Below are positions 15,902 to 38,990 of a DNA stretch of 64,000 bases, piece by piece. The position numbers were made by a program, and so were the translations under genes. The DNA is taken from the NCBI GenBank assembly GCA_937934115.1, contig CALHAH010000030.1, positions 1-64,000 on the forward strand, read 5' to 3'. Under the pieces are notes generated by a model. That model searched no databases. It was not told the DNA's origin and worked only from the letters and a program-made list of their open reading frames with translations. Each line of letters begins with the position of its first letter. Within the stretch, counting starts at the first letter, position 1. This DNA is from an uncultured Thermoanaerobaculum sp. GTDB taxonomy: Bacteria; Acidobacteriota; Thermoanaerobaculia; Thermoanaerobaculales; Thermoanaerobaculaceae.

Positions 15902-15902
15902 C

Positions 15903-19453: not shown

Positions 19454-19684
19454 CCCAGCTCCTCCCGCAAAAAAGCTTAACACCAAAGGTAGGAGTGTGC
19501 TTGCGTCTGGCTCCAGCAAGTCTCTAGTTGTTCGATATTTAACCGATCTTGCCGCATTTGGCACGAGGTTTTCAAAAGACCCTCAGCGGGAGGTGGACGA
19601 TGGGCAGCCGGGGACCTTGAAGAAACCAAAGCCTAAGGTAAGCAGAAAACAGCAAACCACGAGAAAAACAGAAAGGAGGGAAAC

Positions 19685-20029: not shown

Positions 20030-20062
20030 CAACAAAAGAAAAAGACGTGGCGTGGACGGGAC

Positions 20063-20090
20063 GGGGGCGGTTCCACCGCCCCCTTCATTC
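20063..20090 (+). terminator. Hairpin between comEA-like and pseudopilin genes
   Basis: GGGGGCGG-TTCCA-CCGCCCCC is a perfect 8-bp stem followed by TTCATTC. The T-tract is weak, so it may be a partial terminator or an mRNA-end stabiliser. Confidence 0.5.
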
Positions 20091-20102
20091 CGCGGAGGCA
20101 CC

Positions 20103-21612: not shown

Positions 21613-22157
21613 GAGAACACCATGTGCAGGGGAGCCTCCGGGTGCTCTTTTCTGTAGCTTTGCCAAAGCTCCAGGTACGTGCCGCGCAAAGCAGCCTCCG
21701 GAACAAAGCCCAACGCAACCGCCAGCTCCCGCAACCCTGGCCTTTCCCCTTCCAGCTCCACGAAATCCCCCATGGGGGTGTGGTCCAAGGCCACTGCGGC
21801 GTGACGCAAGCTCCAGGTTTCCCGCTCTTTTTCGTAGTAAAAGACTGGGGCATAACCCAACGCTAGAAGGATTGCCAATGCCTTTTCGCCGGCCTCCACA
21901 CCTACCTCCAGCTCTTCCCGCACTTTAAGACCCGCGGCCAAGCGAGCCGGGCCCTTGAAGGTGAGCAGGTGGTGCTCACCCCACTGCCGCACGCGCAAAA
22001 GGCACCCCTTTTGCCGCAAACTGCCTTGGGCATCGTCCAAAACCCAGTTGCGCTCCAGGGTGGCGGGGACCCTTAGGGACGCCCCCAGCCTTTGCAGGGT
22101 GGCACGCACAGGCACCAAGCTTGCGACCCCAAACTTAAACTCCTGCTCTCTCGCCAC
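21609..22157 (-). CDS. CYTH-domain phosphohydrolase/cyclase-like protein
   Basis: 182 aa from GTG. The family's ExExK signature is EQEFK at residues 4-8, which supports this start over the track's upstream ATG. RVRQWGEHHLLTFKGPA and LKVREELEV carry the expected charged tunnel residues, and FVELEGERPGL follows. CYTH enzymes act on triphosphates (thiamine-TP, inorganic triphosphate) or are class IV adenylyl cyclases. A -10-like TATACT ends 6 bases before GTG and no Shine-Dalgarno is present, so it is probably leaderless. Confidence 0.85.
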   Translation of the reverse strand: MAREQEFKFGVASLVPVRATLQRLGASLRVPATLERNWVLDDAQGSLRQKGCLLRVRQWGEHHLLTFKGPARLAAGLKVREELEVGVEAGEKALAILLALGYAPVFYYEKERETWSLRHAAVALDHTPMGDFVELEGERPGLRELAVALGFVPEAALRGTYLELWQSYRKEHPEAPLHMVFS

Positions 22158-22163
22158 GACGGC

Positions 22164-22169
22164 AGTATA
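22164..22169 (-). promoter_or_regulatory. -10 element of the CYTH gene (leaderless)
   Basis: Minus-strand TATACT ends 6 bases before the GTG start. No clear -35. It lies back-to-back with the selB promoter. Confidence 0.5.
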
Positions 22170-22213
22170 CGGGTTGTAGCAGCCCACTGATACCGTGGCC
22201 GAAAAAAGGCACC

Positions 22214-22242
22214 TTGCGAGGCGACGGCCCGGCCGTTAGCAT
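22214..22242 (+). promoter_or_regulatory. selB promoter (leaderless)
   Basis: TTGCGA (22214-22219), 17-bp spacer, TAGCAT (22237-22242), then 7 bases to GTG at 22250. The track's TTG and ATG starts lie inside these promoter boxes, which argues for the GTG start. Confidence 0.6.
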
Positions 22243-22249
22243 GCGCTCC

Positions 22250-24145
22250 GTGAAGGCCGTGGTTTTTGCCACCGCTGGGCACATTGACCATGGCAAGACG
22301 TCCCTGGTGCACGCCCTCACCGGGGTGTGGTGCGACCGCCTCAAGGAGGAGCAAGAACGGGGCATCACCCTGGTTTTGGGGTTTGCTCCACTTTTGGATC
22401 CCGAAGGGGACGTGGAGGTGTCCTTTGTGGATGTGCCGGGCCACGAACGCTTGGTGCACACCATGGTGGCAGGTGCCGGCGGGGTGGACCGGGCGCTTTT
22501 GGTGGTGGCCGCCAACGAGGGGATCATGCCCCAAACCCGGGAGCATGTGGCCATTCTGAAGCTTTTGGGGATTGAGGGTGGTGTGGTCGCCCTCACCAAG
22601 GCCGATCTCGTGGCCCGCTCGCAGCTGGAGGAACGGCAAAGGGAGCTTGCCACTTTTCTTGCGAACGGTCCCCTGGCTTCCGCCCCCATCATCCCTTGCT
22701 CCAGCATCACCGGTGAAGGGATCCAGGAACTTAAAGCCGCGATCCTCCACCAAGCGCGCCGGGTGTACCGGCAAGGGGAACCCCATCGCCCGTTCCGCTT
22801 GGCTGTGGATCGAGTGTTTAGCTTGCCGGGGGCAGGTACCGTGGTCACCGGTACCGCCCGTTGGGGTGAGGTGCAGGTAGGAGAAGATGTTTGGGTTTTC
22901 CCCCCAGGCCGTGGCGTGCGGGTTCGCAGCCTGCAGGTTCACAGTCAGGAACGGCAACATGCCACCGCTGGGGAGCGGGTAGCCCTGGCCCTGGCTGGCA
23001 TTAAGGTGGACGAAATCCCCCGTGGTGCTCAGGTGGTAACCCTTGGCCCCTGGGAACCCACGGTGCGCTTGGCGCTGGAGGTCACCCTGCTGGCGGAGGC
23101 ACCCGCCCTCGTCGAGGGCCAAAGGCTCTGGCTCCACCTTTTGGCCAGCCGCACGGTGGCTACTGTGGAGCGCGTGAGCCCCCCGCGCGCAGGAGAAAAA
23201 CCCACCCGCGCCCTGGTACGCTTGGCCAAGCCCATCCTCGCCTTCCCCGAAGACCGGGTCATTCTCCGCCGCATGACACCGGCCGCCACGGTAGGGGGCG
23301 GTGTGGTGCTGGATACGAGCCTGCCGCGGCTTTCGCGCCGCCAGCTGGGGATTCTGGAAAAGCTGCCGGTACCCTCCCACCGCCGGGAGCTGCTCCTCGC
23401 CATGGTGGAGCGCACGGGCAGGTGCGGCATGAGCCGCTCGCAGTTGGCCGCGCGGTTGGGTTTTTTTCCCGAAGGCGTCCACCAAACTCTGGGAGAACTG
23501 GAGGCTTTTGGGCACATCACGTTGCTGCCGGGCAGAGATCCCTGGGCCTTGCCTTGCCAGGCCCTCGGGGAGGTTGTGGCGGAAGCGGCTAAGCTCCTAA
23601 AAGAAAAAGGAGAGCTGGGGCTTAGCGCCGGCGAGCTCATGCAAGCGTTACACCTGGGGAAGCCCAAGTCCCTCCGTGGGTTTTATTTGCAGAAGCTTTT
23701 GGCGCAAGGAGTGGCGCGTGAGGAAAACGGGCGCTTTTTCGCCGCGAACCTCAAACCGCTCACCAGTCCCCTGGCGGAAAAAGTGGAAGCAATGTACCGG
23801 CAAGCACGGCTTTCGGCACCGTCGCCGGAGGAAGCCGCCGCGCAACTTTCGGCACCCCCAAAGGCCGTGGAGGGCCTTATCAAGCTGCTGGTACGTGAGG
23901 GGCGGTTGGTGCGGGTTGGTGGCAAATGGATCCTCCACCGGCACGTCTTGGATGAGATCGTAACTTCCCTGCGCCGTTGGGGCGTGGAGCGTTTCGACGT
24001 GGCTCAGTTTAAAGACCGCTTCGGTCTTACCCGCAAGCTGGCCATCCCCATCCTGGAGTGGCTGGATTCACAACGAGTCACCCGCAGAGAAGGGAACTTT
24101 CGGCGCCTCTTGCCTACCTCACGGGGTACGAGCTGGTCCGGCTAA
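22250..24145 (+). CDS. selB: Selenocysteine-specific translation factor SelB
   Basis: 631 aa. GTPase domain: TAGHIDHGKTSLVHALTG (G1), RLKEEQERGITLVLGFAPL (switch I), VDVPGHERLVHTM (G3), TKADLV (G4). Two beta-barrel domains follow, then a C-terminal half of winged helices (RRELLLAMVERTGRCGMSRSQ; VERFDVAQFKDRFGLTRKLA) that in SelB binds the SECIS hairpin. It delivers Sec-tRNA to in-frame UGA. selA, selC and selD are not in this window. The 3' end overlaps the convergent gene by 32 bases. Confidence 0.92.
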   Translation: MKAVVFATAGHIDHGKTSLVHALTGVWCDRLKEEQERGITLVLGFAPLLDPEGDVEVSFVDVPGHERLVHTMVAGAGGVDRALLVVAANEGIMPQTREHVAILKLLGIEGGVVALTKADLVARSQLEERQRELATFLANGPLASAPIIPCSSITGEGIQELKAAILHQARRVYRQGEPHRPFRLAVDRVFSLPGAGTVVTGTARWGEVQVGEDVWVFPPGRGVRVRSLQVHSQERQHATAGERVALALAGIKVDEIPRGAQVVTLGPWEPTVRLALEVTLLAEAPALVEGQRLWLHLLASRTVATVERVSPPRAGEKPTRALVRLAKPILAFPEDRVILRRMTPAATVGGGVVLDTSLPRLSRRQLGILEKLPVPSHRRELLLAMVERTGRCGMSRSQLAARLGFFPEGVHQTLGELEAFGHITLLPGRDPWALPCQALGEVVAEAAKLLKEKGELGLSAGELMQALHLGKPKSLRGFYLQKLLAQGVAREENGRFFAANLKPLTSPLAEKVEAMYRQARLSAPSPEEAAAQLSAPPKAVEGLIKLLVREGRLVRVGGKWILHRHVLDEIVTSLRRWGVERFDVAQFKDRFGLTRKLAIPILEWLDSQRVTRREGNFRRLLPTSRGTSWSG

Positions 24146-24953
24146 CACGCAAGCCTTCGGCGCGCAGCGCTCCCACCCTTGTCTCCAGTACACCGGCAAG
24201 CACCACCCACGCCGTAGTGGGACTGCCCTTGGTGTGCGCGGGGGTGAAAAGCCAGCTGCCAGCGGAAGCCAGCACCCACGAGCGCAACCCCTCGGGGCAC
24301 GCCAGAAAAACCAACCGTTTAACCTTGCCGTCAGTACCCACCTCGGCCAAGAGCTTGAAAGGTTGGCGAAACTCCTGTGCCGGGACCTTCGCAGAAAAAC
24401 GCCGGGGAGCCGGCAAGGCTGAAAGCTGCTCCAGGGCCGTGCTGGGCAGTTGGCCGTCTTTTGCGTCTCCTGGCGGCAGGGGAGGTGTTTCCACATGAGG
24501 AGTTTCCCCGGGGTCGGGCAAGGTTACCAGCAGCTGCGCCACACGTCCTTCCTTTACCTCTCCGCGGAGATCAGCGCTCACATCAACCCACGTCGCCACC
24601 GGTTGCCCAAAAGCCTTGGCCGGCGTGAACTCGGTTTCCAAAAGCGCTTGCCGCACCGGCTCCAACACCCCAGGGAAGGGATTGGTGATGGGTTGCGCTC
24701 GCCGGCATGTGCCGTTTTTCTCGATGTACACCGCAAAAGTAGCGGCAACGGTCACGTTAAAGTCCTTGCGCATAGGCGTTTGGCGCGGGGAGGGTTGTTG
24801 GTCTACCGGGGAAAAGAAGGGGTTAATGGGAGGCACAGCCGGCAACTCCATGGGCACCGGCACCGGCAACTGTACCTTGCGCTCCCAAGGCTTTTCCACC
24901 TTGGGGTTACCTTCCTGCACCGCCAAAAGCACCAACAGGATCGCCGCGTGCAT
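24114..24953 (-). CDS. Secreted protein with TonB-C-like repeats, unknown function
   Basis: 279 aa. MHAAILLVLLAVQEG is a short hydrophobic export signal, followed by a Pro-rich segment (LPVPVPMELPAVPP) like TonB linkers. Two similar halves are suggestive of TonB-C folds: VEKPW..FAVYIEKNGTCRRAQPI..ALLETEFTPAKAFGQPV, and FKLLAEVGTDGKVKRLVFL..SWLFTPAHTKGSPTTAW. The family pattern is variation on 'later value added to earlier gene product', so energy-transducer-like. No ExbBD nearby. Function unknown. It ends inside selB and lies downstream of polA. Confidence 0.65.
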   Translation of the reverse strand: MHAAILLVLLAVQEGNPKVEKPWERKVQLPVPVPMELPAVPPINPFFSPVDQQPSPRQTPMRKDFNVTVAATFAVYIEKNGTCRRAQPITNPFPGVLEPVRQALLETEFTPAKAFGQPVATWVDVSADLRGEVKEGRVAQLLVTLPDPGETPHVETPPLPPGDAKDGQLPSTALEQLSALPAPRRFSAKVPAQEFRQPFKLLAEVGTDGKVKRLVFLACPEGLRSWVLASAGSWLFTPAHTKGSPTTAWVVLAGVLETRVGALRAEGLRVSRTSSYPVR

Positions 24954-24962
24954 GAGCCTATC

Positions 24963-27479
24963 TTACCCCTTTGCCTCGGCCCAGGATGGGCCCACCCCCA
25001 CGTCCGCCTTCAACGGAACCGCCAACTCCGCTACCCCTTCCATGGTGGCCTTCACCAAGTGCACCACATCCTGGGCAGCTTCCCCATGCGCCTCCAGCAC
25101 CAGCTCGTCGTGCACCTGCAGTAGCAGGCGTGCCGGAAAACCCTGGGCCTTGAGCTTTGCGAAAGTGCGGATCATGGCCAACTTCATGAGGTCCGCCGCC
25201 GTCCCCTGCACCGGAGCGTTAATGGCCATGCGTTCAGCGTTGCCACGCACGTTGGCGTTTTCGGAATCAAGCCCCGCAATGCGCCGCACCCGCCCAAAGA
25301 GCGTGCGCACCTTGCCGCTGCGGCGCGCCTCTTCCTTTACGCTTTCCAGGTACTCCCGCACCTTGGGCAAACGCGCAAAGTACGCATCAATAAACGATTG
25401 CGCTTCCTTTTGGCTAACCCCCAGCTCGCGGCTTAAGGCGTACGCCCCCATGCCGTAAATCAAGCCAAAATTGATGGTCTTGGCCGCCCTGCGCATGTCC
25501 GGGTTTACCTGCTCCGGTGCCACGCCAAAAACCAAAGCTGCGGTGGCAGCGTGAATATCCTCCCCCCGGGCAAAAGCGGCAACCAACGCCGGGTCCTGGG
25601 ACAGGTGGGCGAGGACCCGCAACTCAATTTGCGAGTAATCCGCCACTACCAGAAGCTTGCCGCTCGCCGCCACGAAGGCCCGCCGCACTTCCCTCCCCAG
25701 CTCCGAGCGGATGGGGATGTTTTGCAAATTGGGATCCGAGGAGGAAAGCCTGCCGGTGGCAGTCACCGCTTGGTTGAAACGCGTGTGGATGCGACCGTCA
25801 GGCCCCAGCTGCTTGGGCAGGGCATCCAGGTAAGTGGACTTGAGCTTAGAAAGCTCCCGGTACTCCAAGATCAAGGCCGGCAAGCGAAACCCCTGCAGGG
25901 CCAGCTCCTGAAGCACATCCGCATCCGTGGAAGGGGCGCGGGTCTTGCTGGTGCGACGCAGCACCGGCATCCCCTTCCAGGAAAAAAGCACCTCCGCCAG
26001 CTGCTTAGGGGAGTTGATGTTAAAGCTCCCCCCCGCTTCCGCAAAGATCTCCCGTTCCCGGGCTTCCATGAGGGAAGCCACCCGCCGCGAAAGCTCGGCG
26101 AGAAAATCCACGTCCAGCTTTACGCCCACCCGCTCCATGTCTTCCAGCACCGGCACCAAAGGGAGCTCCAGCTTTTCGTAAACCTCCACCAACCCTTCAG
26201 TTTCCAGATCCTGCTGCAGCTTGGGCGCCAGCGCCAAAAGCGCCGCCAGTTCCCCCTCCGGGGTGGCCAGGGCGGGGGCGGGGACCCGGTAGCGAGTACA
26301 AAGCGCTGCAAGATCCACATCTTCGCCGGGGGCCAAGACGTAGCCGGCAAGCATGGCGTCGTGGCAAGGCGTTGCCACCTCCACCCCAGCATCCCGCAAA
26401 GCGGAAAGCAACGCCTTGGCGTCGTAGCACCAAACGCTTCCAAAGCGGGGACCCAGGGCGGCCAGCGCGTCTCCCGCAGGGGCCATAGCAAAGCCCTGGG
26501 CGCACCCCACCACCAGCTGCCGGTCCACCCGCCCACAAGCCAAAAGCGGCGCCTTGTGCAAAAGAACAACCAGCTCCCCCCAGGGCAGGGAAGGCAACTC
26601 CGAGCCCGCAGGGGCAGAGGCAGCAGGGGCAGCACCCAGTTCCGCAAGCAAGCTGGCAAAACCCAAAAAGCGGTAAAACTGAGCCAGTTCCCCCTGCGGA
26701 GGCCGACGGGCCAACTGCTCCAGGGAAAAAGGCAAAGGCACGTCCCTTTTGAGCTCCACCAAACTGCGGGATAGCTCCACCAGCTTTCGGTTTTCCGCCA
26801 GGGCCCTTTGCACCCGTGCCGGTGTAACCTCGGGTAACCGCTGGTAGAGGGCGGCCACGGAACCAAAGCGGGAAATGAGCTCGCGGGCGGTCTTTTCCCC
26901 CACACCGGGGCAGCCGGGAATGTTGTCCGAAGCGTCCCCTTCCAGCGCCAACACCTCCACCACTTGCGTGGGTGGCACGCCAAAAACCTCAGCTACGCCT
27001 TGCTCATCGAGGAGTCTCTCCAGCCGCGTGTGCCAAAGCTTAATGTGGGGATCCCGCACCAGCTGCATCAGGTCCTTATCCACGGTGGCAATGACCACTT
27101 CATGACCTTCGCTGGCAGCTTTCTCCGCCAGACTGGCAATCATGTCGTCCGCTTCCACATCCGGTGTCAAAAGCAGCGTCACACCCAAAAGCTCCAAGGC
27201 CCTTTGCACTAAGGGCACCTGCACCCGCAGTTCCTCAGGCATGGGCTGACGTTTGCCCTTGTAGGACTCCAGCATGCGGGTGCGGAACGTTTCCCGGGAA
27301 ACATCAAAGGCCACGGCCACATGGGTGGGCGCCAGCTCGCGCAGCATCTTGTGGAACATGCGCAGAAAACCGTACACCGCACCGGTGGGGGTCCCGTCGG
27401 GAGCGGAAAGGCGAGTTTTCAAAGCAAAAAAAGCGCGGTAAAGGTTGGAATGCCCATCCACCAACAGCAGCTTGGCCAC
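24963..27479 (-). CDS. polA: DNA polymerase I
   Basis: 838 aa from GTG. The 5'-nuclease domain is complete (LLVDGHSNLYRAFFAL; DVEADDMIASLAEKA; ALEGDASDNIPGCPGVGEKT). The middle domain (about 295-420) lacks the DxE metal site of the 3'-5' exonuclease, as in Taq polymerase, so no proofreading is expected. Polymerase motifs A (VADYSQIELRVLAHLSQD), B (RRAAKTINFGLIYGMGAYAL) and C (LLQVHDELVLEA) are intact. A TATTGT -10 preceded by TGG lies 6 bases upstream of the start. Confidence 0.97.
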   Translation of the reverse strand: MAKLLLVDGHSNLYRAFFALKTRLSAPDGTPTGAVYGFLRMFHKMLRELAPTHVAVAFDVSRETFRTRMLESYKGKRQPMPEELRVQVPLVQRALELLGVTLLLTPDVEADDMIASLAEKAASEGHEVVIATVDKDLMQLVRDPHIKLWHTRLERLLDEQGVAEVFGVPPTQVVEVLALEGDASDNIPGCPGVGEKTARELISRFGSVAALYQRLPEVTPARVQRALAENRKLVELSRSLVELKRDVPLPFSLEQLARRPPQGELAQFYRFLGFASLLAELGAAPAASAPAGSELPSLPWGELVVLLHKAPLLACGRVDRQLVVGCAQGFAMAPAGDALAALGPRFGSVWCYDAKALLSALRDAGVEVATPCHDAMLAGYVLAPGEDVDLAALCTRYRVPAPALATPEGELAALLALAPKLQQDLETEGLVEVYEKLELPLVPVLEDMERVGVKLDVDFLAELSRRVASLMEAREREIFAEAGGSFNINSPKQLAEVLFSWKGMPVLRRTSKTRAPSTDADVLQELALQGFRLPALILEYRELSKLKSTYLDALPKQLGPDGRIHTRFNQAVTATGRLSSSDPNLQNIPIRSELGREVRRAFVAASGKLLVVADYSQIELRVLAHLSQDPALVAAFARGEDIHAATAALVFGVAPEQVNPDMRRAAKTINFGLIYGMGAYALSRELGVSQKEAQSFIDAYFARLPKVREYLESVKEEARRSGKVRTLFGRVRRIAGLDSENANVRGNAERMAINAPVQGTAADLMKLAMIRTFAKLKAQGFPARLLLQVHDELVLEAHGEAAQDVVHLVKATMEGVAELAVPLKADVGVGPSWAEAKG

Positions 27480-27485
27480 GCCCTC

Positions 27486-27491
27486 ACAATA
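27486..27491 (-). promoter_or_regulatory. Extended -10 of polA (leaderless)
   Basis: Minus-strand TGG-TATTGT ends 6 bases before the polA GTG. The TGn extension compensates for the missing -35. Confidence 0.5.
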
Positions 27492-27517
27492 CCACGGCTC
27501 CCCCGCCTGCGGTAGGG

Positions 27518-27546
27518 TTGCCGGACAAAAAGTTTGCCCTTACATT
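27518..27546 (+). promoter_or_regulatory. Promoter of the secreted hypothetical at 27566
   Basis: TTGCCG (27518-27523), 17-bp spacer, TACATT (27541-27546), about 20 bases before the ATG. Confidence 0.5.
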
Positions 27547-27565
27547 GATTGCGGAGAACACAACC

Positions 27566-28570
27566 ATGTTTGCCGGTGTTGTCCTTTGCGCCTTACTGGC
27601 TGGACAGGAAGCGGCGTTGCGCCCCACGCTCCGCCCCGCGAATTACTTTCCGTTGCAGCCGGGGACCACCTGGGTGTACCAGGTGAGCGGCGTGGGGGGC
27701 GGGGTCCGGCACGTGACAGCCGCCGCCGGAGTGTCGGTGGCTTCCACGTCAGCCGCCGTGCTCTTGGATGGTTATTTCCCCGGTGCTCCCCGGCTGGTGC
27801 GCAGCTTCGCTGGCAAGGTGGAGGAACTTGGTCCCGGCGGGGAAGCGTACCTCTGGTACTTGCTGGCCGCCCCCGAAGGCACCAGTTGGACTTTACGTCT
27901 TGCGCCCATGGCCCAGGAACGCATGCTCCCCTGCACCGATGGGGCTCGCGTAACGCTGGCCAGCCGCCGGGAAACGGTTACCGTCCCCGCGGGCACCTTT
28001 GCCGACGTGATCCTGGTCCGCTGGGAAAGCCCCTGCCGGGATGCGGGCATCGTCGCCGAGTGGTTTGCCCCGGAAGTGGGGCTGGTACAGCGGGAAGAGG
28101 CCGGCTTTGCCGGGAAAATTGTTTGGCAACTGCAGGAGGTCCGCCGCGATGCAACGCCTTCCTTACCTCGCTACGGGGGCGCCTTGGCACTCTCCCAAAG
28201 GCACTACGTGTTGAACCTCATGCCGCCGGTGGACCCGCAGCATTTACCCGTGCTCGCGGGAACCCTGGCCCTTTGGCACTGGGACCCTGAGCCCAACGGC
28301 GAAGGCGGAGTCCCTCTGTGCCTCCTGGCTAAAGGGGAAATTTTGGACGAAAGGGGGCAACTGGTGGTTGCCTTTGTGCTTCCAGACCCTGCCTGCTTCA
28401 CCCTGGCGCCCCATGGTTTTGCAGCTTTCCGTCTCCTGCCCTTTTCCCACCCTTTTTGGCTGGGTAAAAAGCCCCTCGCCCAAGGGTCCTACACCCTTCG
28501 CGTCAGCGTGGAAACTCCCGGTTGGAAGTCCAGCTTTTCCTTGCCTTTTTCCGTGAGCCACGTTTACTAG
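27566..28570 (+). CDS. Secreted protein of unknown function
   Basis: 334 aa. Start set at the ATG after the promoter; the track's start lies inside polA. MFAGVVLCALLAGQEA is a short signal peptide. RPANYFPLQPGTTWVYQVSG is a motif common at the start of exported beta-rich lipoprotein-like domains, and VTVPAGTFADVILVRWES plus EWFAPEVGLVQREE match the same domain. The C-terminal ~120 residues form a second beta-rich domain. No enzymatic motif seen. Divergent from polA. Confidence 0.7.
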   Translation: MFAGVVLCALLAGQEAALRPTLRPANYFPLQPGTTWVYQVSGVGGGVRHVTAAAGVSVASTSAAVLLDGYFPGAPRLVRSFAGKVEELGPGGEAYLWYLLAAPEGTSWTLRLAPMAQERMLPCTDGARVTLASRRETVTVPAGTFADVILVRWESPCRDAGIVAEWFAPEVGLVQREEAGFAGKIVWQLQEVRRDATPSLPRYGGALALSQRHYVLNLMPPVDPQHLPVLAGTLALWHWDPEPNGEGGVPLCLLAKGEILDERGQLVVAFVLPDPACFTLAPHGFAAFRLLPFSHPFWLGKKPLAQGSYTLRVSVETPGWKSSFSLPFSVSHVY

Positions 28571-28684
28571 CAACCTGCCTTTTACTCCCCACGGCCGGAG
28601 CGTTTCTCCTGAGGCAACGGCGCGGGGCTTGGGCAACAAGCTCCCACATTACACCTCCAACCCGGAGGCGGCGGTTGCAAAAAG

Positions 28685-28720
28685 GGGTACCTCGTGCAGC
28701 TCTGCCCGCAGAAGGTACCC
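28685..28720 (+). promoter_or_regulatory. Inverted repeat in the leader of the kbl-like gene
   Basis: GGGTACC (28685-28691) and GGTACCC (28714-28720) form a 7-bp stem with a 22-base loop, about 50 bases upstream of the start codon. The 202-base gap 28571-28772 has no other recognised element. It could be a leader regulator or chance. Confidence 0.3.
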
Positions 28721-28772
28721 GCACTGCCACCTCCTCCTCCTGGTGGTACGCTACGCATGCAAGGAGGTCTTT

Positions 28773-29999
28773 ATGTCACTGGTGCGTCTTTCCGCATCGC
28801 TCATGGAAGAGGTGAGAGCTTTGGAGCAGGAAGGTCGAGCTAAAGCCCCGGAACGGGTGGTGGTGGGGTACGTGCCGCCCCAGGACGGCCTTGGACCCCG
28901 GTACCGTTTGGCCGGCTCCGACACGCTCTTTTTGCGCATGAACTCCAACTCCTACCTTTCCCTTTCCCACGATCCGCGCCTTTTAGAAGCCGCCGATCGC
29001 GCCACCCGCGAGCTGGGAGCAGGGCCTGGCGCGGTTCGCTTCATTGACGGCACCTTCTCCTACCACGTGGCCTTGGAGGAGCGCATTGCCCGCTTTGTGG
29101 GCAAACCCGCCGCCAAAATCTTCAACGCCGCGTACACCGCCAACCTGGGACAGGGGTTGGCTTTAGCTTCTGCGCAAACCTTTTGGATTGGGGACGAGCT
29201 CAACCACAACTCCATCATCCGTGCCATGCGCATTGCTGGAGTTCCCCGAGAAAACCGCGCCATTTACAAGCACAACGACCTTGCGGAGCTCAAAAAGTGC
29301 TTAGACGCGGTGCCCTCCGGCATGGAAAGGGTGGTGGTGATCTTTGACGGCATCTTCTCCATGCGCGGGGACTTCACGCCCTTGGCCGAGGTTAACCAGG
29401 TGCTGGAGCCTTACCGCGACCGCTTCCCCAAGGGGCTGGTCACGGTCATGGACGACTCCCACGGCATTGGCGCCTACGGCCCCACCGGAAGGGGCACCGA
29501 AGAGCATACCCGCGCCGCCTGCGACATCCTGATTGGCACCTTTGGTAAGGCCTTTGGCGTGAACGGTGGTTTTGTGGCCTCCTCTCCGGAAGTCATCGAG
29601 GCCATTCGCCAAAAGGCCGACACTTACATTTACTCCAACCCCTTGGGCGTCGGTGACTGCGCTGCGGCCTTGGAGGCGGTCAACATAGCCGACTCCGCTG
29701 AGGGCGTTGCACGCTTGCGGGCGGTGGCAGAGCGGGCAAAGCAGTTCCGGGAGGGCGTGCAAAAGCTTGGCTGGGAAACCATCCCGGGGCCACACCCCAT
29801 CGTGCCCCTTTTGGTCCGCGACACCGCCCGCGCCAAGCGCTTGGTACAGCACTTCTTCCAACACGGCGTCCTGGTGGTGGGCCTCACCTACCCGGTAGTC
29901 CCCCGGGGCGAAGAAACCATCCGCTTCCAAATCAACGCCGCCCACACGGAAAACGATATTCAGTACGTTTTGGAGGTGCTGGCGAGGTTTAGCGGTTAA
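28773..29999 (+). CDS. Alpha-oxoamine synthase (KBL/SPT/BioF family)
   Basis: 408 aa from the ATG after AAGGAGG. PLP-dependent fold type I: NSNSYLSLSHDPRLLEAA, GPGAVRFIDGTFSYHVALEE, the cofactor Asp in DDSHGIGAYGPTGRG and the aldimine Lys in GTFGKAFGVNGG. Closest in feel to 2-amino-3-ketobutyrate CoA ligase, but serine palmitoyltransferase-like activity is not excluded. No threonine dehydrogenase neighbour. Its last ~175 bases are repeated at 30828-31002 beyond the toxin-antitoxin pair. Confidence 0.9.
   Translation: MSLVRLSASLMEEVRALEQEGRAKAPERVVVGYVPPQDGLGPRYRLAGSDTLFLRMNSNSYLSLSHDPRLLEAADRATRELGAGPGAVRFIDGTFSYHVALEERIARFVGKPAAKIFNAAYTANLGQGLALASAQTFWIGDELNHNSIIRAMRIAGVPRENRAIYKHNDLAELKKCLDAVPSGMERVVVIFDGIFSMRGDFTPLAEVNQVLEPYRDRFPKGLVTVMDDSHGIGAYGPTGRGTEEHTRAACDILIGTFGKAFGVNGGFVASSPEVIEAIRQKADTYIYSNPLGVGDCAAALEAVNIADSAEGVARLRAVAERAKQFREGVQKLGWETIPGPHPIVPLLVRDTARAKRLVQHFFQHGVLVVGLTYPVVPRGEETIRFQINAAHTENDIQYVLEVLARFSG
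29825..29999 (+). repeat. Direct repeat copy 1 (3' end of the kbl-like gene)
   Basis: Pairs with 30828-31002. The first ~130 bases differ at only about four positions; the last ~45 diverge more (ARFSG versus RAFQG at the protein end). Confidence 0.9.
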
Positions 30000-30017
30000 A
30001 GCTTTTGGCGATATACT
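29989..30017 (+). promoter_or_regulatory. Possible promoter of the MntA-HepT unit
   Basis: TTAGCG (29989-29994), 17-bp spacer, TATACT (30012-30017), directly after the kbl-like stop codon. AAGGAGG at 30021-30027 lies just downstream and could serve a 57-codon TTG-start reading frame (30037-30210) that runs into mntA. I cannot say whether that frame is translated. Confidence 0.4.
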
Positions 30018-30193
30018 TACAAGGAGGTTTAGGGCGTTGATTGCAGCCTCTGGCCTGGAAAAGGCTGGCAAACAAAATGCCGCGGCTTTTGACGTCGTGG
30101 AGGGGCAAAAAGCGCACAGTCTCACCCCGTCCATGGGAAGGTCTTGTGAACCAACTGTGCGAGACCGCTTGCGGCCAGGGGAGGCGAACCACT

Positions 30194-30490
30194 ATGGGCC
30201 TTCACGTTGACAAAGTGGCGATCGTTGAATTTTGCCGAAAAAACGGCATCCGCAAGCTAGCGATTTTTGGCTCGGCCCTGCGGGCTGATTTTGGTCCCGA
30301 AAGCGACTTGGACGTGTTGGTGGAATTCCAACCAGGCGTCCATGCGGGGCTCTTACGGCTTGCACATTTGGAGGAGGAGTTAAGTCAGTTGTTGGGACAC
30401 AAGGTCGATTTGAACACCCCCGGTAGCTTGAGCCCCTATTTCCGCGAAGAGGTTCTTCGGGAAGCCAGGGTGGTTCATGAGCAAGCGTGA
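30194..30490 (+). CDS. mntA: MntA-type antitoxin (minimal nucleotidyltransferase)
   Basis: 98 aa from the ATG after GGGGAGGCG; the longer track start lacks support. The active site GSALRADFGPESDLDVLVEF has the family's GSx10DxD pattern intact. In the MntA-HepT system this enzyme adds AMP to a tyrosine of HepT and silences it. It overlaps hepT by 14 bases. The pair sits between two copies of the kbl-like 3' end, marking it as inserted DNA. Confidence 0.88.
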   Translation: MGLHVDKVAIVEFCRKNGIRKLAIFGSALRADFGPESDLDVLVEFQPGVHAGLLRLAHLEEELSQLLGHKVDLNTPGSLSPYFREEVLREARVVHEQA

Positions 30491-30821
30491 TGACTTGATA
30501 CGCTTGCGGCAGATGTTGGATTACGCCCTTAAGGCCCAGGGCATGGTGGCGGGACGAAATCGCCAGGACCTTGGCAACGACGAGATGTTGCAGTTGGCGT
30601 TGACTCGGGCCTTGGAAGTCATTGGCGAAGCGGCAAACAGGGTGTCCCCGGAAACGAAAAAAAGGTACGAGGACATCCCATGGAGAGCCATCGTAGGGAT
30701 GCGCAACCGTCTCATTCATGGCTACGATAACGTCGACTTGGACGTGCTTTGGGAAACCGTAGTCACTGAGCTGCCCCCGCTAATTGAAAAACTAGCAGCG
30801 ATCCTTGGCAATCAGCACTAA
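30477..30821 (+). CDS. hepT: HepT-type toxin (HEPN RNase)
   Basis: 114 aa, usual length. The HEPN RNase motif and the target tyrosine are together in RNRLIHGYDNVD (Rx4H followed by Gly-Tyr), near residue 80. The preceding helices (LTRALEVIGEAANRVS) match the family. Both catalytic residues and the AMPylation tyrosine are present, so the toxin looks functional and needs its partner. Confidence 0.9.
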   Translation: MSKRDDLIRLRQMLDYALKAQGMVAGRNRQDLGNDEMLQLALTRALEVIGEAANRVSPETKKRYEDIPWRAIVGMRNRLIHGYDNVDLDVLWETVVTELPPLIEKLAAILGNQH

Positions 30822-30827
30822 AAAACC

Positions 30828-31002
30828 CGCCCGCGCCAAGCGCTTGGTACAGCACTTCTTTTAGCACGGCGTCCTGGGGGTGGGCCTCACCTACCCGGTA
30901 GTCCCCCGGGGCGAAGAAACCATCCGCTTCCAAATCAACGCCGCCCACACGGAAAACGACATCGCGTACGTGCTGGAGGTGCTCCGCGCTTTCCAAGGGT
31001 GA
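30828..31002 (+). pseudogene. Duplicated 3' end of the kbl-like gene (repeat copy 2)
   Basis: Reads ARAKRLVQHFF, then TAG where copy 1 has CAA, then HGVLGVGLTYPVV and on to the normal end of the protein with its own stop (RAFQG*). No start or upstream part exists. It is the leftover of a gene end displaced by, or carried with, the toxin-antitoxin insert. Confidence 0.88.
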
Positions 31003-31149
31003 ACGCAAACCAAAACGCTTGCGACGTCCTGTTTTTGCTGGCGCTTTTTCCGGAAAAGTGTGGAAATCACAGTTTCGTGGAATCTTGTGGTAGGTGCTTG
31101 CTGCCGAGGTGGGGGCTGAGGCGACAAAACAGCCGTCGCACCGCAAAAA

Positions 31150-32929
31150 GTAGCCTCCCCGACGGCGCTTCTGAGTTCTTCGCGGACGCGACGCGGGTCC
31201 CTGCACAGGCAAAAGACCCACCGTCCGAACTCCCCGTGTTGGTTCACGGCACGGGCCCATCGCTCGGCGGCTACGGCCTTTTGGCGGTCACGCTCCGATT
31301 CGTACTTCTTTCCTTCGAGAACAACGTTGACACGCTTGCCCTCTTTGCCAGCGCACAATGTAATCTGGGCGGTACTCGTGCCGGGTTCCGTCCCCCTCAT
31401 AGGGAATTACGAAATCCAGGTGATCGTTGCGGACGGAGGCGACTACCTCCGGGGCGTTTTCCAGGGAGAAGGCCACGCTGTGTTCCCCGGAAGGGGCATC
31501 AAGCACCACATGGCTGACGTGGCTCTTGCTGGTCCCCACTGTGGGACGTACCGTACGGAAGAGCACCTCTGACGTGGAGCCCAGCGGTCGAAACCGCTCA
31601 ATGACCGGCAAGCAGCGGCTCACCACCCTCCGTATCCGGTTCAACGGCCTCGATCAGAGGTTCGATGATGCGCTGCTTGTATTTGAGCAACGCAATTTCT
31701 TCCAGCGGCGTCTTCTCGTCCTCCACCACAACCCGTTCCTCCAAATACTGCCAGACGATGGCCAGCACTTGCGGAAACAGGATGTGTCGTGCATTCCACT
31801 CGTCGCGTTTATCTTTTAGGCGGCGGGTAACTTGCGCCGCAATCTCGTAAACCGTGGCTTGTAGGCGTTTTTCGCTGTGGAAGGGGTTACGGTCGTGAAC
31901 CGCCTCTGGACCTGGACCCAGCCGGTCAGGGCGCCGGATGGGGTATCCGACAGCCGGTTTGGCTGTTATTTCGGTGGGTTCCTGAGTCGGGTCAATCCCA
32001 AGGTACGGCAAATTCTGTAGGTTCACGCGAAGCCGCTAACGCACGTCAAAGACGTAGCCTTCCACCCTCGGAAAGGTAATTTCTAGATGCTTGCGTTCGG
32101 GCAAAGCGCGCACAAGTGTCGAGACCTTCCCCACCTCCGCGCCTCCGAGGGCTTTCTTCTTGACGGTGCCACTTCGAATGGCACGCCGTAAACGTCCACA
32201 TATTCGGGTTCATTAGAGTCGTCGTAGTTGATGCGCCGCAGACCCCTCCCCACCACCTGCTCACACAGGAGCTGTGAAGCAAACGCCCGCAAACCCAGAA
32301 TCTGCGTCACGTTTTGGGCATCCCAGCCCTCCTTCAGCATCCCAACGGACACCACGCAGCGGATGTCCTTGCCCGGCGGGTCGCCTCCCCCTTCCCATTC
32401 GGTCTTGCCAATGGTGTCCAACACCTTACGCAGTCGCTCAGCGGCTTCCTTTTTTCTTTCCCCTTCGATGGCGCTTTCGGCTTCCGCTAGGAGTTTCGTG
32501 TCAATCCGGAAGGTAACCTCGTGACCTTGCCGGTTTTCCAGTTCGGCCAACACGTTCCCTCGCGCCATGTGCTCGTGCCCGAGCTTGGCCAGGTCCGTGT
32601 TATCGCACACCACGATCAAGACGGGAGGGACAGGCGAGTTAGCCCTCTGAAACTCCTCTAATGTTCTTTTCCACTGGGAGGCCAAGGTTGCCAAAGCACC
32701 TTCGGCTTCGCGCAGCACGGACTCAGGCCTAGCCCGCCGGCGGGCCTTCTGCCGCTCAACTGGTGCTCTTAATTTTCCCTTGCTGTAAACGCTCCATCAC
32801 CCCACGGGGCAGGAGGTAATAGCCCGCCGGCCGCCGCCCCTCCACCCGCATCGGCTGGCCCTCCCGGTAGTCCCAGTAGTAGGAGGGTTCCTCAAAGGGC
32901 GAGTTGATGATAGGGTTGTCAACGAGCAT
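31150..32929 (-). pseudogene. Type III-like restriction endonuclease (DEAD helicase) remnant
   Basis: The minus strand begins MLVDNPIINSPFEEP at 32929 with AAAGGAG upstream, reads about 57 codons to a TGA, and then lacks the central helicase. It resumes near 32720 with [33 protein letters not shown] and [14 protein letters not shown] (helicase motifs V and VI). Further lesions: a frameshift near 32170 (before [13 protein letters not shown]), an in-frame TAG at 32036-32038 (after GYVFDVR), a one-base insertion near 31608 and a frameshift near 31350 (before RVNVVLEGKKYE). The C-terminal nuclease-like part (GRWVFCLCRDPRRV) fades near 31150. At least five disabling changes; clearly dead. Confidence 0.85.
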
Positions 32930-33200
32930 CGCATGTCATCTCCTTTGTGAACGACTTCAGCCATTGGTCAAATTCGTCCTCGCCAAGCCGCTGAGGGTTT
33001 TCCCGATCCAAATGCCAGCGCAGGGGGTTTTCGGTGATGTACTGGCAAATACGGTTCAAGGAGTCCTCGTTGCGGATAATGTGTTCGTAGTAATTCTGTT
33101 GCCATAATCGGCCGCGAAACGGTGGCCAGCCCGATTGTTTGACGCCGCGAAGATATTCATTGGTGGTCATGGTTTTCAACCATTGTACAATTTCCGGTGG

Positions 33201-33222
33201 GGGCGCACCTATATGTGCGCCC
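33201..33222. repeat. REP-like palindrome inside the RAYT gene (1)
   Basis: GGGCGCAC-CTATAT-GTGCGCCC, perfect 8-bp arms, 6-base spacer, translated as part of GAHIGAP. Confidence 0.85.
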
Positions 33223-33254
33223 AATTCATTTGCGTGTGCGCCCATTCCGTTATC

Positions 33255-33278
33255 GGGGCAGACACGTAGGTCTGCCCC
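33255..33278. repeat. REP-like palindrome inside the RAYT gene (2)
   Basis: GGGGCAGAC-ACGTAG-GTCTGCCCC, perfect 9-bp arms, 6-base spacer, translated as part of VGADLRVCP. Same arm-spacer architecture as the palindrome 33 bases away. Confidence 0.85.
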
Positions 33279-33542
33279 TACGATTATGATAATTCCATGG
33301 AAATGGTTGGGCATGACGACATATTTATCGGTTCGAACACCTGGGAATTTGCGATTCAATTTTACCCACCATTTCTCCACCATCCGCCCATCATCGTTCA
33401 ATTGCATTTCCCCATCCACCACCTCGCCAAACAGACACAAACGGTCTTGGGTGCAGATGGTGACAAAATACGCGCCCGGTCGGGAATAATCGCGTCCCTT
33501 CAGGCGAATGCTGCGGCGATGATGTCTTTCTGGGTCGTATCT

Positions 33543-34000
33543 CATGGATAGTGTCCACCCTCTAAGTCGACTACCCGCACGACCTCATTCCCTCGAAAAT
33601 CAATCACTTTGACGGCGATCCGCTTGTGCTCGCCAGGCTGGAAAGGGAACGAGATGGTGCCGCGCATCTACTCAAAAACCTCGGGATCAATCTGGGCTTT
33701 GAGGGCGCGGTGCAGTTTGTCCCAGGCGTCGGGGTCGCCGGGGAAGAAGGACTAACAAATGTGAAAGGTCTTACCGTCGTAGTCGGTATCTAAGAACCAG
33801 GCAGCCACGTGGCTACCGCGCGTATGCTCCGTTTCGCCCGTCAACGGGTCGTAGATGTCCACCCCGCGCAGTTTCACAACAAACGTGCCGTCCTTGTAGG
33901 TTGGCGCCATACCCGCCGGTGGGTTGTTTTTCCGTTTGGCTTCCTCGTAGCGAAAATCCTGTACCGGAGGGGAGGTATGGCGAATTTTCTTCTTTGGCAT
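33543..34000 (-). pseudogene. DNA methyltransferase (mod) remnant lacking its catalytic domain
   Basis: From the ATG at 34000: MPKKKIRHTSPPVQDFRYEE and KRKNNPPAGMAPTY are the N-terminus of a site-specific DNA methyltransferase. It jumps at once to the extreme C-terminal part (VKLRGVDIYDPLTGE, VAAWFLDTDYDGKTFHIC). Two in-frame TAG codons follow (after FHIC and after DPEVFE) before RGTISFPFQPGEHKR and the terminal TGA, which overlaps the RAYT start. The whole AdoMet and target domain is missing. Confidence 0.78.
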
Positions 34001-34435: not shown

Positions 34436-35455
34436 TCACGGCACCAACCAAAGGTTGGGATCGGCGGCCACTTCCCGGCCATGAGCTACCGCTTGCCTGA
34501 TGCGTTGCGGGTGAAAGTTGGTGGAGGCGTTGTCAGTGCCGTACCAAACACGGGGGGCGAGGACGTGCACCGGCACCGTGCGCTTGCCAATGGTGGCAAG
34601 AGCCTCTTCCAGCGCTTTCCTGCGGCTTCCTCGCAAACCACCCAGGGCTTTTTCCGCAGCTGCCACGATGCGGTTCCACTCCAAGGCACCACGGATGTCG
34701 CCCAAGTAAATTTCGTCGGTGAGGATTTCCACCACGCGCTTGAGGACGTCTAAGGCCCCCACCTTGGTGCCCAGCCAGTTATCCGACCACTGGCGGTAGC
34801 TGTGCTCGGGCACCGTGGAACGGGGAAGGCGACCGTCCGGTTCCGGTATGACGCGAGAGGTGAGCAGCACGTAAATTTCGTCGGCACCGGCAGCAAAGGC
34901 CGAGCCCAGAGGGGTGATATCGCGCACCCCCCCGTCCACCAGCACGTCTTTGCCTGTGTCCACGTAGGGAAAGACCACGGGAATGGCCGTGGAAGCCATA
35001 AGCTTTTGCAAAAAGTCCGCCTCCGCCGGCGTCCACTCTTGGTAGCGCCCGGAAACTAAGGACACGGTGCCCACCGCAAAGTCCCGCCCGGAGGAGCGCA
35101 AGGCTTGCACATCCAGGTGCGTGCGCACGAGTTCTTTCAAGGGCTCGACGGTGTAAAGGGAATCGGCGCCGGCAACAAGAGCAGCAAAACCCCCAGCTCG
35201 CTGGCCGTACACCGAGTGGTTGCCTTCAATGGCGGAAAGCCAAAGCTTTTTAAGCTCGCCCACTTTGACCTGGAGGTGGGCCAAGGAATCGCCTTGGGTG
35301 GGGGCTTGCGCGAGGAACGCGGCGTTAAGGGCACCCACGGAAACACCGCGCAGGATGTGGAAGTCCAATGCCTTGCGCCCAACCAGCTCCTCCAACATCC
35401 CCACTTGAAAGGCCCCCCGCGCCCCACCCCCGCCGAGGACCAGCGCTCGTTTCAC
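34436..35455 (-). CDS. Patatin-like phospholipase
   Basis: 339 aa from a GTG after AAAGGGGGTTTGCT; the track's longer start is not supported. Oxyanion loop GGGGARGAFQVG at residues 8-19, nucleophile GVSVGALNAAF near 40 and the Asp of the dyad in LVDGGVRDITPLG near 190. A complete Ser-Asp acylhydrolase. No signal peptide, so probably cytoplasmic. The C-terminal ~120 residues are helical with no known motif. Substrate unknown. Confidence 0.9.
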   Translation of the reverse strand: MKRALVLGGGGARGAFQVGMLEELVGRKALDFHILRGVSVGALNAAFLAQAPTQGDSLAHLQVKVGELKKLWLSAIEGNHSVYGQRAGGFAALVAGADSLYTVEPLKELVRTHLDVQALRSSGRDFAVGTVSLVSGRYQEWTPAEADFLQKLMASTAIPVVFPYVDTGKDVLVDGGVRDITPLGSAFAAGADEIYVLLTSRVIPEPDGRLPRSTVPEHSYRQWSDNWLGTKVGALDVLKRVVEILTDEIYLGDIRGALEWNRIVAAAEKALGGLRGSRRKALEEALATIGKRTVPVHVLAPRVWYGTDNASTNFHPQRIRQAVAHGREVAADPNLWLVP

Positions 35456-35911
35456 AGCAAACCCCCTTAAAGCATTACCATGCCAAAAATGAGACGCCAG
35501 GGCAAGGCGCAAAAAAAGGCTCGTAAGAGAAGTTTCCGTGAGGACTAGCGAAGGCACATCTTGGTGGTGGCTTTTCCCGGCACGCCGGAAACCTTCCGCC
35601 CCTCCCCGGCCTTTGCGGTATTTGGGCCTTGGGATACGCACACGCTTTGCGGTTCAGGCTGCTCGCAGGCTTCCCCGCCTAGAGGGTCACGCGAGGGTAG
35701 AGCACGCACTGGGCCATGCGTTTTGCCGCCGGCAGGGCGGGACAAAAGCCCCACACGCCGAGGCTAAAAAAATAGCGGCTTACCATGCGCTGGCAGGAAT
35801 AAACACCAGAAAGGTTTTTGTCATCCATTGACGCGGGACCGCAGGGTGCCGCCAAAGACTTACAATTGCTGACGCGGGGAACAGGGGCGCGAGGAGGGGA
35901 GCAAAGCCGGG
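35456..35911. other. 456-base intergenic region, nothing recognised
   Basis: Contains short G/C-rich inverted segments and poly-A/T runs (AAAAAAA at 35511 and 35766) but no gene, tRNA or riboswitch core I can identify. TACAAT at about 35861 may be the -10 of the ABC operon, with no matching -35. Confidence 0.4.
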
Positions 35912-37177
35912 ATGTGGTTAGTGATTTTCAAAATGGCCCGCCGCCAGCTTTTTGCTTCCCCCACGACCGTGGCTTTGACGTTAGCAGGTGTGGCCGTGGG
36001 GGTTGCGGTGTTCATCTTTACCGTGGCCATGATGGATGGGCTGGTGGCTTATTTTTCGCAAAGGATTTTGCGTATTTCCCCAACCCTCACAGTGGTTCCC
36101 GCAAGCGAGCAGACCCTCCAGCGGGCGGTTAGGCCCACCAAGAGTCGCCACACCGTGGTGGTGCTCACAAACCCCGCGCCCCCCGACCAGCGACCCACCA
36201 TCCGCGGTGGTGTGGCGATGATACCCACCTTGGAAAAACTCCCCGGGGTGGAGGGCGTGGCACCAGCGGTGAGCACCGCCGCGGTGATGGCCTTTGGCAC
36301 CATCAGCGAAAGCGCTACCCTCCTGGGCCTGGACCCCCGGCGCGAGAGGGATGTTACCGATCTTTACCGTCTCGTGGTGGAGGGGAGCTGGCAATCCCTT
36401 GAGGGGAAAAACAACGCGGTGCTTTTAGGCTACAAGCTGGCCGAGCGCCTGGGGGTGCAGGTGGGGGACAGGGTCCTGGCCACGGGGGAGTCGGGGGCCT
36501 CCAAAGACTTGGAGGTGGTGGGGATCCTGGCCGTGGGCCTGGGCAGCTGGGACGAGGCCACCGCTGTGGTGCCGTATGCAGTGGCGCAGGGTTTGGCCGG
36601 TTGGAACGGAGACGAGGTGAGCGAGCTGCGGCTGCGAACCTCCCTGCAAAACCTCGAAGCCCTTCGGCAAACGGTGCAAAGTGTAACGGAACGCAAGGTG
36701 GAACGCTGGGAGGAAACTAACCGGCCGGCGCTGCAACTGTTCCGCACCATCGGCTTGACCACGTACCTACTTACGGCTTTTGTCCTCGTAGTCGCCGGCC
36801 TAGGCATTAGCAACAAGCTCGCTACGGTGATCCTCAACAAAGAACGGGACATTGCCATCCTTCGCGCTTACGGTTTTAGCCGCGGAGCTGTGCGCGCTCT
36901 TTTCCTCATCCAGGGTTGGCTTTTGGGGGTTTTTGGCGCTCTTCTCGGCTGTTTTTTGGCGTTTTTGGTCATCACCTACTTTCGTGCGCATCCCATCCGC
37001 TTTGCCCCCAGGGAAAGGGCGGTTTTAGCCTATACCGAGCTTTACCTTGCCAACGAACCTTCCTACTACGTGTTTGTGGCGGTGGTGGCGATGGCCATTG
37101 CTGTGGTGGCTTCGCTTTTGGCGGTGCGGCGGGCCGCTAGGGTTTTGCCCGTGGAGGTGCTCCGTGGGGAAGCTTGA
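35912..37177 (+). CDS. ABC transporter permease, MacB/FtsX type (first)
   Basis: 421 aa. One N-terminal membrane helix (residues ~20-45), a large extracytoplasmic domain, then three C-terminal helices, with NKLATVILNKERDIAILRAYGFSRGAV as the MacB/FtsX landmark. GGAGGGG lies before the ATG. It overlaps the ATPase gene by 14 bases. First gene of permease-ATPase-adaptor-permease. Role: mechanotransmission-type export of lipid, lipoprotein or antibiotic; substrate unknown. Confidence 0.9.
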   Translation: MWLVIFKMARRQLFASPTTVALTLAGVAVGVAVFIFTVAMMDGLVAYFSQRILRISPTLTVVPASEQTLQRAVRPTKSRHTVVVLTNPAPPDQRPTIRGGVAMIPTLEKLPGVEGVAPAVSTAAVMAFGTISESATLLGLDPRRERDVTDLYRLVVEGSWQSLEGKNNAVLLGYKLAERLGVQVGDRVLATGESGASKDLEVVGILAVGLGSWDEATAVVPYAVAQGLAGWNGDEVSELRLRTSLQNLEALRQTVQSVTERKVERWEETNRPALQLFRTIGLTTYLLTAFVLVVAGLGISNKLATVILNKERDIAILRAYGFSRGAVRALFLIQGWLLGVFGALLGCFLAFLVITYFRAHPIRFAPRERAVLAYTELYLANEPSYYVFVAVVAMAIAVVASLLAVRRAARVLPVEVLRGEA

Positions 37178-37931
37178 TGAGGGTACGTTGCCGCCAGGGT
37201 CGGTCGCCGGCGCGGGTATTGCCCTCACAGCGCAAAACCTTTGGAAAACGCTGGGCACCGGCGCAGCAGCACGGGAGGTTTTACGCGACGTAAGTCTCAC
37301 GTTACGAACGGGAGAGTTTGCTGCGCTCACGGGTCCTTCAGGCTCCGGAAAGTCCACGCTTTTGTATATCTTGGGCGGTCTTGACCGACCGGACAGGGGC
37401 AGCGTGGAGGTGGCGGGAGTACCGCTGCACACGGCCTCGGACCGCGAGCTGGGGGAGCTGCGCAACCGATACATTGGCTTTGTCTACCAGTTCCACTTTC
37501 TCCTGCCGGAGTTTTCCGCTTTGGAAAACGTCCTCATGCCCCTTTGGGCGCGGGGGGCAGGTTTTAAAGCCGAAGACCAAGCTTGGGCGGAGGAACTTTT
37601 GGCCCGGGTGGGTCTTTACGAAAAACGGAAAAAGCTGCCGCGCGAGCTTTCAGGGGGTGAACAGCAGCGGGTGGCTGTGGCCCGCGCCCTGGCGGGAAAA
37701 CCAAAAATTGTTCTTGCCGATGAACCCACGGGCAATTTAGATTCGGCCAACGCCCGCAACGTGTACAACCTTTTCCGCGAAATTAACGAGTCCTTGGGGC
37801 AAACCATCCTGGTGGTCACCCACGACCCCCACTGGGCCGCTGCCTCAGACCGGGTTTTCCACCTGCTGGACGGGCAAATCGTTTCTGAGGAAGCGCGCAG
37901 CTCCACGGAAACAAAATACGGAGGAACGTAG
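37164..37931 (+). CDS. ABC transporter ATP-binding protein (LolD/MacB type)
   Basis: 255 aa from a GTG preceded by GTGGAGGTG and inside the permease end; the earlier track start is out of context. Walker A GPSGSGKSTLLY, Q-loop VYQFHFLLPEFSALENV, signature LSGGEQQRVAVARAL, Walker B IVLADEPTGNLDSAN and H-loop VVTHDPHW are all intact. LolD-like pattern around the Q-loop. Confidence 0.94.
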   Translation: MGKLDEGTLPPGSVAGAGIALTAQNLWKTLGTGAAAREVLRDVSLTLRTGEFAALTGPSGSGKSTLLYILGGLDRPDRGSVEVAGVPLHTASDRELGELRNRYIGFVYQFHFLLPEFSALENVLMPLWARGAGFKAEDQAWAEELLARVGLYEKRKKLPRELSGGEQQRVAVARALAGKPKIVLADEPTGNLDSANARNVYNLFREINESLGQTILVVTHDPHWAAASDRVFHLLDGQIVSEEARSSTETKYGGT

Positions 37932-37934
37932 CCT

Positions 37935-38990
37935 ATGCGCCGCGGTTTTGTACTGGTTATCCTTCTGCTAGCCTTTGGTTTTGTCACCGCTCGTCTGTTG
38001 ACGTTGCGCATGGCGCGCCCCGCCGTAACGCTTGTACCGGTCACGCGGGGAACCGTGGTGGAGGCCGTATACGCCACAGGGCGCGTGGACTGTGACCAGC
38101 GGGCCACGGTCCGGGCTCGCCTGGCAGCACCTCTGCTGCAGGTTCTGGTGGGTCCCGGTGAAGAGGTCCGAAGTGGCCAGGTGCTCGCCATTCTCGACAG
38201 CCGGGAAGTTACTCTGGAGGTGGCGAGGACGGAAAAGGAGCTGGCTGCCGCACGGGCAGCCGCTGCCGAAGCGGAGGATGCAGCCCTCCGCCTGGAAAAG
38301 CTTTACGCGGCGGCGCTTATTGCTGAAAACCAACTCATCCGTGAACGGGAAAGGGCTCGGGAGCTGAAGGAGAAAGCTGACGCCTTGGAGAAGGTCCTCA
38401 ATCTCGCTCAGGAAAGAACCAGTTGGTCCGTCCTCCGCTCCCCCATGGATGGTACCGTGGCTACCCTGGTGCGGCGCGCCGGGGACCTCCTGCAAGTGGG
38501 GGATGAGGTGCTCACAGTGGTGGATTTACGAAAACCTTACCTGCGGGTGGCGGTGGACGAAAGGGACTTGGGTAAGGTGGCACCGGGACAGGAGGCGCGC
38601 ATCGTTTTTGATGCGTACCGCGACCAAGTTTTTGTAGGTGAGGTTTGGCGCATAGTCCCCACCTTGGACCGTTTGACCCGTTCCGCAGATGTTTTGGTGC
38701 GTTTGCCTGCGGGGGTTCCCCCGCTGAGCCTCGACCTTACCGCCACCGTAAACATCGTCATCAAAAGGGTGGAAAACGCGGTTCTTGTTCCCAGCCTCGC
38801 CCTGCGTGGGACGGGCTCCGAGAGAACCGTACTGCGCCCCAACGCGGAGTGGGTGCTGGAGGCCATCCCCGTGGGCGTGGGGGTTTGCGACACCGAGCAC
38901 TGCCAGGTCACCGCCGGGCTTCAGCCTGGGGAGCTGATTGTGGCCGAGGCTTCCAACTTCCAGCCCGGCACGAGGGTACGACGGCAGTGA
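37935..38990 (+). CDS. Periplasmic adaptor (membrane fusion protein)
   Basis: 351 aa. One N-terminal membrane helix (FVLVILLLAFGFVTA), lipoyl half-motifs VRARLAAPLLQVLVGPGEEV and LRSPMDGTVATLVRRAGDLL flanking an alpha-helical hairpin (EVARTEKELAAARAAAAEAE), then beta-barrel and membrane-proximal parts. MacA/HlyD family. It would link the inner-membrane complex to an outer-membrane channel; no TolC gene is present here. Ends in GTGA shared with the second permease. Confidence 0.9.
   Translation: MRRGFVLVILLLAFGFVTARLLTLRMARPAVTLVPVTRGTVVEAVYATGRVDCDQRATVRARLAAPLLQVLVGPGEEVRSGQVLAILDSREVTLEVARTEKELAAARAAAAEAEDAALRLEKLYAAALIAENQLIRERERARELKEKADALEKVLNLAQERTSWSVLRSPMDGTVATLVRRAGDLLQVGDEVLTVVDLRKPYLRVAVDERDLGKVAPGQEARIVFDAYRDQVFVGEVWRIVPTLDRLTRSADVLVRLPAGVPPLSLDLTATVNIVIKRVENAVLVPSLALRGTGSERTVLRPNAEWVLEAIPVGVGVCDTEHCQVTAGLQPGELIVAEASNFQPGTRVRRQ

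Follow-up and report, generated by a model that had tools for sequence, protein, structure and literature searches.

A MntA-HepT toxin-antitoxin pair between two copies of a gene end in Thermoanaerobaculum, probably inserted by a homologous crossover at an apparent defence hotspot

The 64-kb stretch of a Thermoanaerobaculum contig analysed here (the window) carries an intact MntA-HepT-type toxin-antitoxin pair (30194-30821) between two copies of the 3' end of an alpha-oxoamine-synthase-family gene, and we consider it probable (roughly 0.6) that a one-off homologous crossover of the RecA type (Campbell, or ends-in, integration) at a defence hotspot put the pair behind this gene. As we picture the event, a piece of DNA of ~1.0 kb from a related bacterium, consisting of the last ~160 bp of the gene as present in that bacterium, with mntA and hepT behind them, would have entered the cell, presumably by transformation, and would have been circularized or end-joined (~1003 bp, a presumed intermediate), and one crossover inside the gene end would have joined it to the chromosome. 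The resident gene would have gained foreign last few codons, with mntA-hepT placed behind it, and the native gene end and its flank would have been shifted 1003 bp downstream, to decay there. The proposal of single-crossover insertion of a circular or end-joined fragment follows from two features, a reciprocal crossover that appears to have occurred at one point and the recurrence of a gene-end fragment after hepT.

The gene in question (28773-29999; BioF/Kbl-like, 408 aa; PF00155, 9e-41) is encoded on the plus strand, as are all the features described below unless noted. It is indeed completed by copy 1 of the repeat, as the original prediction had it, and from its open frame it is predicted to be functional. 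The top NCBIfam matches of the product are to glycine C-acetyltransferase/BioF, all under the curated cut-offs, its same-genus ortholog shares 91% amino acid identity, and the nearest named relatives of the gene are found in Thermoanaerobaculia and other Acidobacteriota, followed by other phyla. The two copies occupy positions 29824-29980 (copy 1, the 3' end of the gene) and 30827-30983 (copy 2), with 94% identity over 157 nt and a spacing of 1003 nt, and they constitute the sole direct repeat of at least 40 nt inside the window. A third copy was not found in the organism's own genome (a draft of 2.42 Mb in 52 contigs), the repeat thus being confined to one locus. Read from left to right, the mismatches between the copies number 4 in the first 53 nt, none in the following 80 (29877-29956, corresponding to 30880-30959 in copy 2), 6 in 14, none in 10, and 13 in the final 19, and with this last segment left out the repeat measures ~157 bp, so that of the earlier description, of two flanking direct repeats of about 175 bases, the repeats stand and the length does not. 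Three of the four leftmost mismatches fall in one codon pair and create the in-frame TAG of copy 2 (30862-30864); copy 2 also has a Val-to-Gly change and ends in ...LRAFQG*, versus ...LARFSG* in copy 1, and both the stop codon and the different tail had been correctly noted.

Between the copies, mntA (30194-30490; 98 aa, PF01909), for an MNT-domain nucleotidyltransferase antitoxin, and hepT (30477-30821; 114 aa, PF01934, 2.9e-26), for a HEPN ribonuclease toxin, overlap by 14 nt, both frames being open; mntA further matches PADLOC PDC-S09 (1e-27) and 1wot_A (4e-12). Class I MntA-HepT systems are defined by the GSX10DXD motif in MntA and the RX4HXY motif in HepT (PMC7641770), and here the PF01909 and PF01934 genes are adjacent and their translations contain both signatures, as GSALRADFGPESDLD and RNRLIHGY, respectively. 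The pair thus resembles the class I HEPN/MNT (MntA-HepT, type VII) systems in gene order, overlap, sizes, domain families and both motifs, but it differs in that MntA (43.1 bits) and HepT (35.9 bits) both fall below the cut-off of 60 of the NCBIfam type VII equivalogs NF047752/NF047751, and in that HepT has no sequence match among solved structures. MntA would be expected to neutralise HepT by AMPylation. The leader between the gene end and mntA (30000-30193), which we take for incoming DNA, is without a DNA match in 149 genomes of the class. A promoter scan gave no hit, and the terminator count was close to that in shuffled sequences. At the other side, the second gene fragment starts at most ~10 nt after the hepT stop (junction at 30822-30832). 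The GC content of the insert is 0.54-0.56, versus 0.62 for the gene.

The searched set contained two genomes of the same genus, G001 and G002, of which the former is colinear with the window left of the gene (10293-29980) and again from 42977 on, with variable cargo between these parts in both genomes. The search for an empty site in relatives, proposed with the original prediction, was successful: G001 has the intact gene directly joined to a flank of the copy-2 type, followed by a DUF4143 ATPase gene and an intact Res gene, and positions 30827-31083 (copy 2 plus ~100 bp of flank) are colinear with the intact gene end and flank of G001 (L033 6272-6530, 77%). Because the G001 gene end continues into the copy-2 flank, copy 2 with its tail (30827-31002) is best read as the displaced native end, the tail of copy 1 having come with the insert, and the claim that the insertion rebuilt the 3' end of the gene is borne out, copy 1 completing the open reading frame and copy 2 being the end that was displaced. 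A tandem duplication of the gene end, with the toxin-antitoxin pair inserted later between the copies and the tails diverging afterward, would yield the same order of parts, but we find it scarcely credible, as the 13/19 and 6/14 differences adjoin 80 identical bp and drift alone is too gradual for such abruptness; simple tandem duplication, named earlier as an explanation that would refute the claim, is disfavoured by the different tails together with the phase switch described below. An assembly artefact, through the merging of two strains or of a circle at the identical 80-bp stretch, is also very unlikely: the genome is a draft in 52 contigs, and the exact repeat is shorter than typical reads, yet the junction between hepT and copy 2 is located outside the identical stretch, and on either side the contig runs colinear with G001.

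Evidence for a crossover comes from a switch in phase between the copies when these are compared to the two relatives. At positions 29957-29970, there are 2 differences in 14 positions between copy 1 and G001, and likewise 2 in 14 between copy 2 and G002, the swapped pairings giving 7/14 and 6/14, while at 29981-29999 it is copy 1 that is nearer to G002 (6/19 differences, versus 12/19 from G001) and copy 2 that is nearer to G001 (5/19, versus 12/19 from G002). The switch point is TGGAGGTGCT, the same 10 bp in both copies (29971-29980 and 30974-30983). When the left part of copy 1 is joined to the right part of copy 2, the sequence encodes DIQYVLEVLRAFQG, the G001 counterpart being DIDYVLEVLRAFQA, and its last 45 nt differ from G001 at 8 positions, versus 15 and 12 in the copies as they stand. 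The opposite join (left of copy 2, right of copy 1) encodes DIAYVLEVLARFSG, the G002 counterpart being DIAYVLQVLASFSG, and differs from G002 at 11 of 45 positions, versus 16 and 17 for the actual copies. The two-sided Fisher p values are 0.035, 0.005, and 0.048, for three overlapping counts. The pattern is based on 6 plus 13 variable sites that are linked neighbours, on two references, and on a breakpoint picked after inspection. Taken at this value, the switch lends moderate support to a reciprocal crossover within TGGAGGTGCT, which would make both copies reciprocal hybrids and 29981-29999, encoding ...ARFSG* and nearer to G002 than to G001, the incoming, foreign tail.

The same switch bears on homology-facilitated illegitimate recombination, the main rival, which we regard as unlikely. 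A linear donor carrying the gene, mntA and hepT would have undergone a homologous crossover in the gene end, and the other end of the donor would have been joined without homology 157 bp before the end of the resident gene, leaving copy 2 wholly native, with DIAYVLEVLRAFQG as the expected tail of the empty site. Such an event accounts for the tail being foreign, for the native flank behind copy 2, and for the position of the junction ~10 nt past hepT, a junction that appears non-homologous. However, it predicts a copy 2 that is G001-like through the whole tail, yet at 29957-29970 it is copy 1 that resembles G001, copy 2 resembling G002. This mechanism has been proposed for the swapping of T6SS cargo in Vibrio cholerae and is likewise cited for rhs loci, but it occurs far less often than ordinary homologous recombination (PMC5361080), which also counts against it here. 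The likeness to the displacement of C-terminal parts in Rhs and T6SS loci is twofold: a resident gene gains a new 3' end and cargo by recombination at a conserved part, and the old parts are left downstream as an orphan remnant, as they are here (PMC5361080). The difference is that in our case the gene is for a metabolic enzyme, just the last few codons are altered, and a toxin-antitoxin pair makes up the cargo.

As to the source of the DNA, no donor carrying the gene, mntA and hepT was found. HepT is absent from both G001 and G002, its best match in 297 genomes of the phylum is at 53%, and matches elsewhere are below 60% in plasmids and phages and at 34-35% in viral contigs; for the insert DNA, matches within the class are of just 67-80%, over short stretches of coding parts. 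Of the 80 positions that are identical in both copies, 11 differ between copy 1 and G002, and such identity of the copies would be unexpected with a donor as distant as G002, suggesting instead a close (conspecific) donor or an added gene conversion. The genome has matches to ComEC and DprA, and uptake of DNA by this route is possible.

Island integration by tyrosine recombinases usually restores a gene end and displaces the native one. The locus resembles such islands in that the 3' end of a gene is directly repeated, the gene is restored, and the native end is displaced, a resemblance that, along with three matches to tyrosine recombinases at other places in the genome, speaks for a minimal integrase-less element for which the gene 3' end serves as attachment site and which is moved in trans. 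We nevertheless hold this to be quite improbable. The insert differs from these islands in its size of ~1 kb and in having neither an integrase nor recurrence, some of the three matches may be housekeeping XerC/D, and the 80-bp identity beside the switch fits homologous recombination. Between the repeats mntA and hepT are the only genes recognised, in agreement with the earlier remark that no integrase is present. A second partial 3'-end copy beside an ortholog was not seen in the other ~85 loci, with flanks of varying length, some cut by contig ends, so the search for the same gene-end cassette with other cargo gave no matching duplication; the gene-end core is absent from viral contigs, and, at the sensitivity used, the insert region matched nothing in phage or plasmid records. 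What looked like gene-end fragments in G028 and G034 are located at contig ends and were rejected as second copies, and the sole remaining partial match, at 38% and upstream, in L057, was not accepted as a gene-end duplication. Of the two routes suggested originally, we therefore favour homologous recombination, the trans-mobilised element having shown neither recurrence nor a carrier in the loci and records searched.

Excision was predicted to leave a full-length gene, which is correct for an exchange to the right of the copy-2 TAG: a crossover within 29877-29980 would restore a full-length gene ending in ...RAFQG. It is incorrect for the leftmost ~34 identical bp, where a truncated gene would result. 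A bolder reading, of a ~1-kb circle acting as a self-contained, integrase-free gene-end cassette, with a toxin-antitoxin pair as cargo and the gene 3' end as its sole mobility sequence, is in our view very doubtful; if true, it would enter and leave the site by general recombination, carrying a cargo-linked gene tail through the population.

The single-crossover reading places the event at a site that varies across the genus. Differing defence genes or their remnants follow the gene in all three genus genomes: the MNT/HEPN pair and a Res remnant in the window, a DUF4143 ATPase, Res and Cap15/cyclase in G001, and BrxD-like and OLD/GajA-like genes in G002. Judged from these three genomes, the gene end looks like a hotspot for swapping defence genes, and it looks genus-specific because PADLOC gave no match for 10 proteins encoded downstream in nine relatives that are more distant. 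In the window, positions 31003-32932 (minus strand) hold the native flank and then the decayed type III restriction gene (by tblastn of the G001 Res), in which residues ~45-388 of the intact 929-aa G001 protein are missing and several frame changes are present. Overall, neither the parts nor the proposed mechanism is new in kind, and this is an unusually readable, essentially ordinary case of defence-gene swapping. Its value is that of an example, at base resolution, of how defence cargo may enter a hotspot without an integrase and with the frame of the neighbour gene kept open, and it suggests that earlier cargo swaps may be recorded in the final codons of a flanking core gene.

Further differences between the window and G001 were observed around this site. 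The DUF4143 ATPase gene upstream of Res in G001 is missing from the window. An ORF resembling IS200/REP-type transposases (32919-33545) matches Y1_Tnp at 22.7 bits, slightly under the cut-off, and at the corresponding position, with conserved sequence on either side, G001 encodes Cap15 and a cyclase (CBASS-like; L033 10577-12058), a clean difference in cargo. Positions 35454-42977, ~7.5 kb between a patatin gene and an RNase PH gene, are absent from G001 and encode MacB/FtsX and HlyD-type transport genes, a photolyase, and a DUF1722 protein. The window opens with a second Res-like match (3-425, minus strand), which has 42% identity to residues 296-437 of the G001 Res.
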